A DNA stretch of 64,000 nt from positions 124,001 through 188,000 of the forward strand of contig NZ_VCNL01000003.1 in the NCBI RefSeq assembly GCF_007671685.1, read 5' to 3'. The first letter of the stretch is position 1. Every line of letters starts with the position of its first letter. Below are positions 1,981 to 8,070 of the stretch, in pieces. Below the pieces are notes generated by a model. The model was not told the origin of the DNA and did no database searches. It saw nothing but the letters and a program-made list of their open reading frames with translations. Origin of the DNA: Halorubrum salsamenti (GTDB lineage: Archaea > Halobacteriota > Halobacteria > Halobacteriales > Haloferacaceae). The position numbers were made by a program, and so were the translations under genes.

Positions 1981-3036
1981 TCAGATCAGGCGCTCGGCGA
2001 TCCGACCGGCGCCCTCGGCCGCGGCGGTCGCGGGGTCGTCGGGGGAGACGACCTCGACGTCGCGGTCGAGTTCGGCGGAGAGCCGCGTCTCGAACTCCTC
2101 GGTGAGCCCGGGGATGCAGGCCATCCCGCCGGTGGCGGCGATGGGGCGGCCCAGCGCGAGCTGGTACGGTTTCATGTGGTCGTTCGCGAGCTCCGGGAGG
2201 AACTCGTTGGCGACGGCGTCGACGGCCTCGTCGATGTACCGGTCGACCGGCTCCCGCACGCCGCGGTCGACGGTGAACTCGTGGCTCCCGCCGCCGGGCT
2301 GTTGGATCACGTCCGTGAACGGCTCGAAGTCGTCCACGTCGGCGTGTTCCTCTTTATATTCCCGGGCGGTCGTCCGGTCGATGTGGACGCGGCCCTGGCT
2401 CTCCTCCTCGACGGCGGCGACGATCCGGCGGTCGACCTCGTTACCCGTCACCGAGCCGGTCGAGAACGGCGAGAGCTGTTCGCCGCGCCGGTAGGCGCAC
2501 GCCTCGAGCGTCGTCGACCCCATGTTGATCGAGACGAACACCTCGTCGATGGCGGAGAGGTCGTCGCCGTAGGCGGGGATCGCCCCGCACAGCGACTCGG
2601 GGTAGCTCCGCGTCTCGACCTGTCCGATAGAGGATCCCTCGATCACCGACTTGAGGTTGTTCACGCCCTCCTCGTTGTCGATCGTGGGCACCGCGTAGAC
2701 GACCGCGCTGTCCGCGGGCACGTCGTGGGCGTCCACGAGCGCCTCGAAGAAGCGCTCGGCGTCGGCGACGCTCTCGTCGTCCTCGGGGAGCCCCGACCGG
2801 AGCATAAAGCGCACCGTGTCGGGGTACTCGATCGCGGCCTCGTGGCCGAACAGGACTTTCTCGTCGCCCGTGATGGCGTCCTCGTAGGTCGCCAGACACG
2901 TCAGCGTCGAGTGTCGCTCGCGGCCGCCCCGCCCGTCGGGGAGATCGAGCACCGTCCGGGTGCTACCGAGTTTCACGCCGACCGCTTCGGGGCCGTCTGT
3001 ACCGTTGATGTCCGTGGATTCGTCGTCGTCGCTCAT
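1981..3036 (-). CDS. Actin-like ATPase (salactin/volactin/MreB-like)
   Basis: This 351-residue protein has an actin/Hsp70 ATPase layout. A first phosphate loop reads VGVKLGSTRTVL after a short acidic tail. A second nucleotide motif, INMGSTTLEA, lies near residue 190, and an adenosine motif, ATGGMACIPG, lies near residue 310. The length is that of haloarchaeal actin homologues (salactin of Halobacterium, volactin of Haloferax) rather than DnaK. These are known to form dynamic filaments linked to cell shape or DNA inheritance; orthology here is inferred. The ATG overlaps the stop of the upstream FlaD/E-domain gene (ATGA), so translation is probably coupled. The larger upstream in-frame extension reads into that gene and was rejected. 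Confidence 0.7.
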   Translation of the reverse strand: MSDDDESTDINGTDGPEAVGVKLGSTRTVLDLPDGRGGRERHSTLTCLATYEDAITGDEKVLFGHEAAIEYPDTVRFMLRSGLPEDDESVADAERFFEALVDAHDVPADSAVVYAVPTIDNEEGVNNLKSVIEGSSIGQVETRSYPESLCGAIPAYGDDLSAIDEVFVSINMGSTTLEACAYRRGEQLSPFSTGSVTGNEVDRRIVAAVEEESQGRVHIDRTTAREYKEEHADVDDFEPFTDVIQQPGGGSHEFTVDRGVREPVDRYIDEAVDAVANEFLPELANDHMKPYQLALGRPIAATGGMACIPGLTEEFETRLSAELDRDVEVVSPDDPATAAAEGAGRIAERLI

Positions 3037-3530
3037 GATGTACTCGCACACGAAGCGATCCGGACGATGGAGACGAGGCTGATCCGGTGGTCCGCGGGGG
3101 TGAAGGGCCGGTCGTACCGCGGGGCGTCGAATCCCGCTAACCGGCGTCGGAGGGCCTCGGCCGCGTCGTCGTCGACCCAGCCGAGCTCGGCGTAGTACGA
3201 CAGCGCGTCCCGGCTCCGCACGTGGCCGCCGACGTCGACGAGGTAGCCGAGCCACTCGCCGATCTCGTGTTCCGCCTCCGGAGAGGCCGGAATCGCCGTC
3301 AGGTACGGTCGATCGCCGGCGTCGGATCGGTCTCCGTCGCCGGACAGCCGCAGCCCCCGCTGACGCTGGAGCAGCTCGGTGAACGCGGCCGAGCGGGCCG
3401 CCTGCTCCGCTCGGTTCCGGTTCGGCTGACGAAGCGACCGCTCCCGAGGCGCTTCGTCGACGCCGTCCCGCGGTGCGTCCGCGATCCGGCGCAGTTCCCG
3501 TACGTCGTATTGCCGTGGATTCAGACTCAT
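3033..3530 (-). CDS. FlaD/FlaE (ArlD/E)-domain protein
   Basis: The protein has 165 residues. The N-terminal ~70 are basic and probably disordered. The C-terminal ~90 match the archaeal FlaD/E domain: PYLTAIP, EWLGYLVDVGG, YYAELGWV, a double-Arg helix, FTPADHRISL and IVRIA. In the archaellum, ArlD/E domains join the motor to its cytosolic ring. Here no arl genes are nearby. Instead the gene lies upstream of, and overlaps by 4 nt, the actin-like gene, so a role as partner or anchor of that filament is a reasonable inference. The start ATG at 3530 gives MSLNPRQYDVRELRRIAD; the ORF continues further upstream, but this start excludes an AT-rich leader that looks like promoter. Confidence 0.75.
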   Translation of the reverse strand: MSLNPRQYDVRELRRIADAPRDGVDEAPRERSLRQPNRNRAEQAARSAAFTELLQRQRGLRLSGDGDRSDAGDRPYLTAIPASPEAEHEIGEWLGYLVDVGGHVRSRDALSYYAELGWVDDDAAEALRRRLAGFDAPRYDRPFTPADHRISLVSIVRIASCASTS

Positions 3531-3614
3531 GTTCCGTCCGTCGTTCGCGTCCGTATCGATACTCTCAGGGGACGGATATATGATAGTTACCACGCAGTTA
3601 TCAGATGTGAGAAA

Positions 3615-5739: not shown

Positions 5740-5748
5740 GGTTCTTGT

Positions 5749-6055
5749 GCGGTGGCGCGTGCCGCCGAGCGCCCCCAGGGCGCGAGGTGCATGCGCGAGG
5801 GACGCCGCGAGCGCTTTTAAGCGCGAGCGGCGAGGCTGGGGAAGCGTGAGGTGCGGGGAGGTGCGGTTGGGTGGGACTCAAAGGGGCAGCCGTGAGGCGG
5901 GCGCAGGCGATGTAAGCACTGCAAGGAGCGAGCAACGCGAGCGACTGAAGCGCGCAACGAGCGTGCGCCCGCCTCACGGCTGGGGCTTTGGCGGTGTTCA
6001 CGGTCGATCCGCCGTCGACTGCTTATAAGCGAGCGGCTGGGCCTTTGAAAGTGGC
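5749..6055 (+). repeat. Dispersed intergenic repeat, copy A
   Basis: This copy fills most of the 398-base gap between pantoate kinase and srp54. The head begins GCGGTGGCGCGTGCC, followed by a hairpin (GAGCGCCC/GGGCGCGAG) enclosed by an outer stem (GCGTGCC/GGTGCATGCGC). The middle carries GAGGCTGGGGA, GCGTGAGGTGCGG and GGGACTCAAAGGGGCAG. The tail is CTGGGGCTTTG at 5980-5990, followed by a unit with GCTTATAAGC at 6021-6030 and a second CTGGGCCTTTGAA. The same modules occur in four other copies in the window. Short Arg-rich ORFs here are by-products of the head sequence. Confidence 0.8.
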
Positions 6056-7711: not shown

Positions 7712-8063
7712 CCTCCAAAGCCCCAGCCGTGAGGGCTCGGTGCGGTCGTTGCGGTCCTCAGTCAGTCGCTAGCGCTCCCTCCTTGCGGTCCTTACGTCCC
7801 GCGCCTTCGCCCTCACGGCAGCGAGGCGCTTCGCGCCTCTGGCAGCCGGCGGCAGCGCCGCCGGCGACTGCCCCTTTGAGTCCCACCCCGCACGGCACCG
7901 CACAGCCTCACGCCTCCCCAGCCTCGTCACCGGCGCGGAGCGCCGGTTGCAAGCGAGAGCTTCGCTCTCGCCCTGTCGGTGGTCCTCCGCTTCGCTCCGG
8001 ACCACCGACTCCCTCGCGCGTGCACCTCGCGCCCTCCGGGCGCTCGGCGGCACGCGCCACCGC
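7712..8063 (-). repeat. Dispersed intergenic repeat, copy B (inverted)
   Basis: This is the longest copy, about 350 nt, oriented on the minus strand. The head at 8049-8063 is the complement of GCGGTGGCGCGTGCC and lies seven bases past the stop codon of the minus-strand gene at 8071. The shared blocks follow: the hairpin around 8028-8045, GCGTGAGGCTGTGCGG, GGGACTCAAAGGGGCAG and, at the other end, GCTGGGGCTTTGGAGG. Between them sit several copy-specific short inverted repeats (for example GAGCGAAGC and GGCGCGAAGCGCC types). Together with the tandem units it fills the 535-base gap after srp54. Confidence 0.8.
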
Positions 8064-8070
8064 AGACGAT

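Follow-up and report, generated by a model that had tools for sequence, protein, structure and literature searches.

Salactin of Halobacterium salinarum (VNG0153C) forms dynamically unstable filaments that grow from the cell poles and then collapse back (mBio 2023, PMC10746226). Its foci are polar, and bipolar in 86% of cells; deletion of the gene caused no difference in motility, and under low phosphate the deletion led to uneven DNA distribution and altered shape and viability (PMC10746226). In the same paper, poor synteny was stated, no partner was named, the term "archaell" is absent, and the gene was placed in a DNA-repair neighbourhood (PMC10746226). As far as the open-access literature shows, work on salactin has been confined to H. 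salinarum. According to that study, the closest actin subfamily is MamK, the magnetosome-chain actin, whereas dynamic instability is shared with the ParM/Alp7A-type DNA-partition actins (literature). Volactin (H. volcanii HVO_2015) is likewise a haloarchaeal actin homologue.

ArlD (FlaD) is a switch protein of the archaellum. In H. volcanii, it is needed for motility and archaellation, and ArlD-GFP is polar, with small foci that sometimes move from pole to pole (PMC6509185). ArlD interacts with ArlCE and with adaptors of the CheF type, as shown in H. volcanii and H. salinarum (literature); in H. salinarum, FlaD binds the CheF-type adaptor OE2404R (PMC2666748). ArlC, ArlD, and ArlE carry no transmembrane segment and are thought to lie in a cytosolic ring or next to the polar cap (literature), and the polar foci of ArlD depend on MinD2 and MinD4 (literature). 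Here we describe a gene pair that links these two systems in a 64,000-nt stretch of the Halorubrum salsamenti genome (the window).

Salactin and an FlaD/E-domain protein overlap in the window

The first-pass annotation had described two open reading frames on the same strand with a 4-nt ATGA overlap, and both frames and the overlap were found where it had placed them. The features of the locus are as follows:

1981..3036, minus strand: salactin, 351 aa (PF25229, NF053533; single copy in the genome)
3033..3530, minus strand: ArlD-type FlaD/E-domain protein, 165 aa (PF04659, family alignment, ArlD-family profile)
3033..3036, minus strand: 4-nt ATGA overlap of the arlD stop codon TGA and the salactin start codon ATG (sequence reading)
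3054..3314, minus strand: FlaD/E domain, residues 73-159, predicted helical (Pfam match, AlphaFold2 model)
3489..3521, minus strand: NPRQYDVRELR motif near the N terminus of the ArlD-type protein (alignment of 29 sequences)
3576..3588, minus strand: candidate TATA-like promoter element AACTATCATATAT (position, Halorubrum comparison)

The actin is salactin. It matched Pfam PF25229 (Salactin) over its full length (E = 9.1e-176, 584 bits; cut-off 27.1) and the NCBIfam equivalog NF053533 with 571 bits (cut-off 400), which places it in the same family as H. salinarum salactin at the equivalog level. Of the "salactin/volactin type" that had been proposed, only the salactin half stood: the volactin match was weak and secondary (22.6 bits, below the cut-off of 35), and volactin identity was rejected. 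The match to MamK was also weak (34 bits against a cut-off of 400), so that by score the protein is not MamK.

The locus is an arlD-salactin bicistron. Because the two reading frames overlap, no promoter is possible between them, and the TATA-like AACTATCATATAT, 46-58 nt upstream of arlD, is probably the single promoter element of the pair. A locus comparison showed a TATA-like sequence with an almost identical leader, equally spaced, in the 12 other Halorubrum loci that it covered. The ATGA overlap was found in 29 of the 33 named Halorubrum loci, and in other genera the FlaD/E gene and salactin mostly met at a GTGA junction or stood a few nucleotides apart; ATGA coupling was ruled out as a general feature, being mainly a trait of Halorubrum. 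Elsewhere in the window, an SRP54-like gene (~6.0-7.5 kb) is bracketed by a 60-nt inverted repeat (5743-5802 and 8010-8069, 92% complementary), with further inverted pairs inside.

The partner protein is very probably ArlD

The 165-aa protein matched Pfam PF04659 (Arch_fla_DE) over residues 73-159 (E = 9.3e-17, 61.2 bits; cut-off 21), as the assignment of a FlaD/E-like domain had predicted, and its identity could be narrowed further, very probably to ArlD itself. Exactly two PF04659 proteins are encoded in the Halorubrum salsamenti genome: the salactin partner, which has no fused ArlC part, and a separate 603-aa ArlCE beside ArlF and ArlG. The partner is the only ArlD candidate in this archaellated genome. 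Against an ArlD-family profile it scored 165 bits, and ArlCE-type proteins scored 115 bits or less. Across 155 haloarchaeal genomes, the profile scores fell into two groups, the ArlD family at 120 bits or more and ArlCE and other FlaD/E proteins at 115 or less, with the exception of four divergent motif-bearing members that scored lower (G021, G036, G037, and G099).

Members of the salactin-linked family are ~150-175 aa long, or longer where the linker is long, and carry an N-terminal NPRxYDxxELR motif and a C-terminal FlaD/E domain, joined by a charged linker that varies between members. P5, Y8, D9, and R14 of the motif were invariant in 29 sequences, and the motif was found once in the Halorubrum salsamenti genome. 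The family includes a 156-aa ArlD of genus g21 (L154) that lies in a complete archaellum cluster, directly before ArlCE-F-G-H-I-J, and shares the N-terminal motif and the C terminus with the window protein. Genus g21 is probably Halobacterium, since its family is separate from the Haloferax and Haloarcula relatives and a gene near one of its salactins reads like one for a MutL-like protein, in keeping with the DNA-repair surroundings described for H. salinarum salactin (PMC10746226). A tree of the short FlaD/E domain alone was poorly resolved and weakly supported.

Together, the presence of two FlaD/E proteins in the genome, the motif shared with the Halobacterium-like ArlD, and the two groups of profile scores make it very probable that salactin is paired with the archaellum switch protein ArlD, and we infer that the paired protein is the functional ArlD in Halorubrum. 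A free-standing FlaD/E protein unrelated to ArlD is disfavoured by the Halobacterium-like ArlD motif and the gene content. Like the switch-complex ArlD/FlaD of H. volcanii (PMC6509185) and H. salinarum (PMC2666748), the window protein has a FlaD/E domain and no ArlC fusion, and its N-terminal NPRxYD motif recurs in the ArlD of a Halobacterium-like arl cluster; unlike the switch-complex proteins, it is encoded outside the archaellum cluster and is paired with salactin. In Haloferax-type and Halobacterium-like relatives, arlD does lie in an archaellum/chemotaxis cluster, and such a location is typical of the ArlD family but not defining.

An AlphaFold2 model of ArlD built from 29 sequences (mean pLDDT 80.5) began with a short helix that spans the N-terminal motif and is modelled at moderate confidence; a long helix comes next, followed by a confident helical FlaD/E domain with pLDDT mostly >90. 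ArlD is thus predicted to be a helical, soluble-looking protein. Comparison of the modelled fold with the PDB returned no significant match, and a sequence search for a solved relative found none. The partner had also been proposed as a membrane anchor; this is unlikely because ArlC, ArlD, and ArlE lack a transmembrane segment (literature) and the modelled protein is helical and soluble-looking.

The arlD-salactin pairing is conserved across haloarchaea

We fetched 80 public loci with the window salactin as the query. Such a query favours close salactins, so 155 haloarchaeal genomes drawn evenly were added, of which 78 carried a salactin over the cut-off, 122 a FlaD/E protein, and 80 an ArlD-type protein. 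The results showed that the adjacency extends well beyond the strain in which it was first noticed. A FlaD/E gene lay directly upstream of salactin on the same strand in 74 of the 80 public loci, and the pairing was present in 20 of the 24 salactin genera and, by profile coordinates, in 61 of the 78 salactin-bearing genomes (63 when the divergent G021 and G099 are added). The six exceptions among the public loci were one at a contig end (L049), two from Halosimplex with the FlaD/E gene 5 kb upstream (L072 and L076), a second Haloferax mucosum salactin followed immediately downstream by a FlaD/E paralogue (L046), and a pair from metagenome bins (L078 and L081). In genome G076, a second salactin copy is directly followed by a different FlaD/E paralogue (L121, 3471-5065).

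As a control, genes within 6 kb of salactin were compared. Of 68 full-flank loci, 67 had a FlaD/E protein, as did all 22 taxonomic groups, and each of five other window neighbours persisted near salactin in 1-3 of the 22 groups. The pairing is beyond chance, being kept in 74 of the 80 independent loci against the loss of the other neighbours, and general synteny was ruled out as its source, since those neighbours shuffle almost completely. Adjacency is not obligatory: arlD and salactin stand apart in Halobacterium-like genomes and in several that are Natronomonas-like, and Halobacterium seems to belong to a small number of lineages with a split pair.

Salactin co-occurs with ArlD-type proteins

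No salactin was found in the 33 haloarchaeal genomes without a FlaD/E protein, as opposed to 78 of the 122 with one; with phylogeny ignored, the Fisher test of this co-occurrence gave 1e-12 by genome and 0.004 by genus. For salactin and ArlD-type proteins, 73 of the 155 genomes had both, 70 had neither, five had salactin only, and seven had ArlD only, so that 12 were discordant. Among the five with salactin and no high-scoring ArlD, four (G021, G036, G037, and G099) carried a divergent motif-bearing FlaD/E protein, and no motif-bearing FlaD/E protein was detected in the fifth (G110). Genus g32 includes two of these genomes, G036 and G037, in which arlD and salactin are unlinked, and a third (G049) with neither gene and with archaellins present. 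In a single genome of the Halorubrum genus (G108), arlD and salactin were both lost and the archaellins were kept; at the place of the pair, this genome has an archaea-specific SMC-related gene (NF045487) and a gene for a 198-aa protein (L207, 8737-11473).

Among the seven genomes with an ArlD-type protein and no salactin, G001 and G007 had no N-terminal motif, G024 and G147 had a degenerate one, and in G003, G012, and G123 it was intact. By genus, it was lost in g19 (L199 and L208) and degenerate in g27 (L210 and L211), and all four of these genomes lack salactin. ArlD does not need salactin, because G003, G012, and G123 keep a motif-bearing ArlD without it. The motif was also rejected as a strict salactin marker, being kept in these three genomes and deviating in the salactin-bearing G093. 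The NPRxYDxxELR motif is a possible contact site.

The pair lies in a chemotaxis and archaellum island in some other haloarchaea

Within the window, no further archaellum or chemotaxis gene adjoins the pair, and the ArlCE-ArlF-ArlG genes of Halorubrum salsamenti lie on a different contig. The first-pass annotation had seen no archaellum genes around the pair; this holds locally but not for Haloferax-type genomes, in which the pair is part of a che/arl island. Haloferax, Halogeometricum, Halobellus, and relatives share the arrangement X-cheY-cheC-cheD-arlD-salactin. In L203 and L204, cheY-cheC-cheD-arlD-salactin runs opposite arlJ-I-H-G-F-CE and the archaellin genes, and a short gene between the two runs was read as a putative winged-helix regulator, CsmR. 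In G117, the order is cheC-cheD-arlCE-arlF-arlG-salactin-arlCE-arlH-salactin-arlCE-arlH-arlI, which puts two salactins inside the archaellum cluster; this region (L143, 2721-10945) is a duplicated archaellum segment with two salactin copies and three ArlCE-type proteins.

In H. volcanii, a co-regulated unit "ArlD/HVO_1202" is listed beside "CheY/C/D" (PLoS Genet 2026, PMC13286277), and the passage of that paper that names HVO_1202 gives no salactin identity. Because of the gene order in Haloferax and Halobellus-like loci, HVO_1202 would be salactin by synteny, and the second position of the H. volcanii unit would then hold salactin, as in the window pair.

Some salactins outside haloarchaea occur without detectable archaellum genes

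Salactin was next to a FlaD/E gene in none of the 18 non-haloarchaeal genomes examined, and archaellin-family genes were present in 14 of these 18. In G171, G206, G277, and G304, the last only 84% complete, salactin was present and neither an archaellin nor a FlaD/E protein was detected, which rules out a strict dependence of salactin on the archaellum outside haloarchaea. Because salactin occurs there without archaellum genes, an older role that does not involve the archaellum is probable, and the coupling to ArlD looks specific to haloarchaea.

The non-haloarchaeal salactins have neighbours of their own. In family f18 (L174-L177, four genomes), salactin is preceded by a protein of ~700-750 aa with a signal-peptide-like start. 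In 11 of the 14 genomes outside this family, genes for a coiled-coil protein and a MinD/ParA-type ATPase come after salactin (L184, 7336-9713, with NCBIfam on L184; also L179-L183, L185-L187, L189, and L190), and the three genes apparently form a conserved unit.

Discussion

Both proteins were already known, and the link between arlD and salactin is apparently the new part. A link of arlD, an actin, and the archaellum was not found in the open-access literature as far as it was available to us, and a report in a subscription journal or a preprint is possible. H. salinarum salactin was published without a partner, whereas the window salactin, like that of most haloarchaeal genera, is bicistronic with an ArlD-type gene. 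A filament and its pole anchor, as first suggested for the pair, is a reasonable model because the Pfam FlaD/E score and the conserved adjacency both held.

We propose, with about an even chance of being right, that polar ArlD ties salactin filaments to the pole that carries the archaella. From the motor ring or the polar cap, ArlD would recruit, nucleate, or hold the pole end of the filaments, whose growth and collapse would help to position, retain, or share out the polar motility machinery during growth and division, possibly with chromosomes attached to the same pole as further cargo. This is backed by the gene identities, the conserved pairing, the che/arl operon placement in some lineages, and the co-occurrence. 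It is favoured because salactin pairs with arlD, because the second Haloferax mucosum copy adjoins a FlaD/E paralogue, because two salactins lie in the archaellum cluster of G117, because g32, with its unlinked genes, includes a genome lacking both, because H. volcanii has the co-regulated ArlD/HVO_1202 unit (PMC13286277), and because the published foci of ArlD and salactin are both polar. What counts against it is that salactin deletion left motility unimpaired in H. salinarum, that some lineages have a split pair, that three haloarchaeal genomes have a motif-bearing ArlD and no salactin, and that salactin outside haloarchaea has no FlaD/E neighbour. The deletion result weighs against a direct motor role and less against positioning or inheritance, and it comes from H. 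salinarum, which appears among the lineages with a split pair. MamK positions a cellular organelle, and this is the analogy that we favour for salactin. Tentatively, ArlD-nucleated salactin filaments at the archaellated pole may position the archaellum/polar-cap assembly and divide it among the daughter cells, which would make salactin a MamK-like cytoskeleton of the motility organelle, the DNA phenotype in Halobacterium being secondary or older; we regard this version as possible, on the unlikely side.

In low phosphate, loss of salactin disturbs DNA partitioning and viability, whereas motility is unaffected by the deletion (PMC10746226), and both genes might simply be co-regulated as needed in the motile, polar, rod-shaped phase, with salactin segregating DNA and no contact between the two proteins. 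The co-regulation of archaellum and chemotaxis genes with the arlD/HVO_1202 unit (PMC13286277) and the salactins without archaellum genes outside haloarchaea are consistent with this, but in nearly every case the partner is specifically ArlD and not some other motility gene, it is kept while the window neighbours shuffle, and the second Haloferax mucosum salactin also adjoins a FlaD/E paralogue, all of which make co-regulation without contact a rather doubtful account. If ArlD were instead a spindle-pole anchor, from which salactin filaments start and move DNA at low ploidy, the motility pole would also be the segregation pole. The emergence of filaments from the poles, the uneven DNA distribution upon salactin loss (PMC10746226), and the MinD/ParA-type ATPase beside non-haloarchaeal salactins would fit such an arrangement. 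Nevertheless, we consider it unlikely, given that salactin is absent from all 33 FlaD/E-less haloarchaeal genomes, which must also segregate chromosomes, and that no conserved DNA-binding adaptor lies next to the pair. A DNA-partition actin operon of the ParMRC type has such an adaptor beside the actin; the conserved neighbour of salactin is an archaellum protein of the FlaD/E type instead, and its other neighbours are unconserved.

Salactin could also act on the motor, by binding ArlD in the switch ring and modulating rotation, switching, or assembly, with the filaments serving for storage or control. In some genomes salactin is surrounded by arl genes or follows cheY, cheC, and cheD, which, together with the binding of FlaD to OE2404R (PMC2666748), points in this direction; however, the unchanged motility of the H. 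salinarum deletion strain and the difficulty of explaining micrometre-long dynamic filaments as a motor subunit render a motor role very improbable.

The distribution of the pair suggests that H. salinarum, the source of the published phenotypes, is in the minority with an uncoupled pair. The missing motility effect may therefore not extend to H. volcanii, where arlD and HVO_1202 appear as a co-regulated unit. One gene pair thus joins two questions, that of the polar tether and purpose of salactin and that of how haloarchaea position their motility machinery, and it puts ArlD forward as a candidate partner, with the N-terminal motif of ArlD as the candidate contact site.
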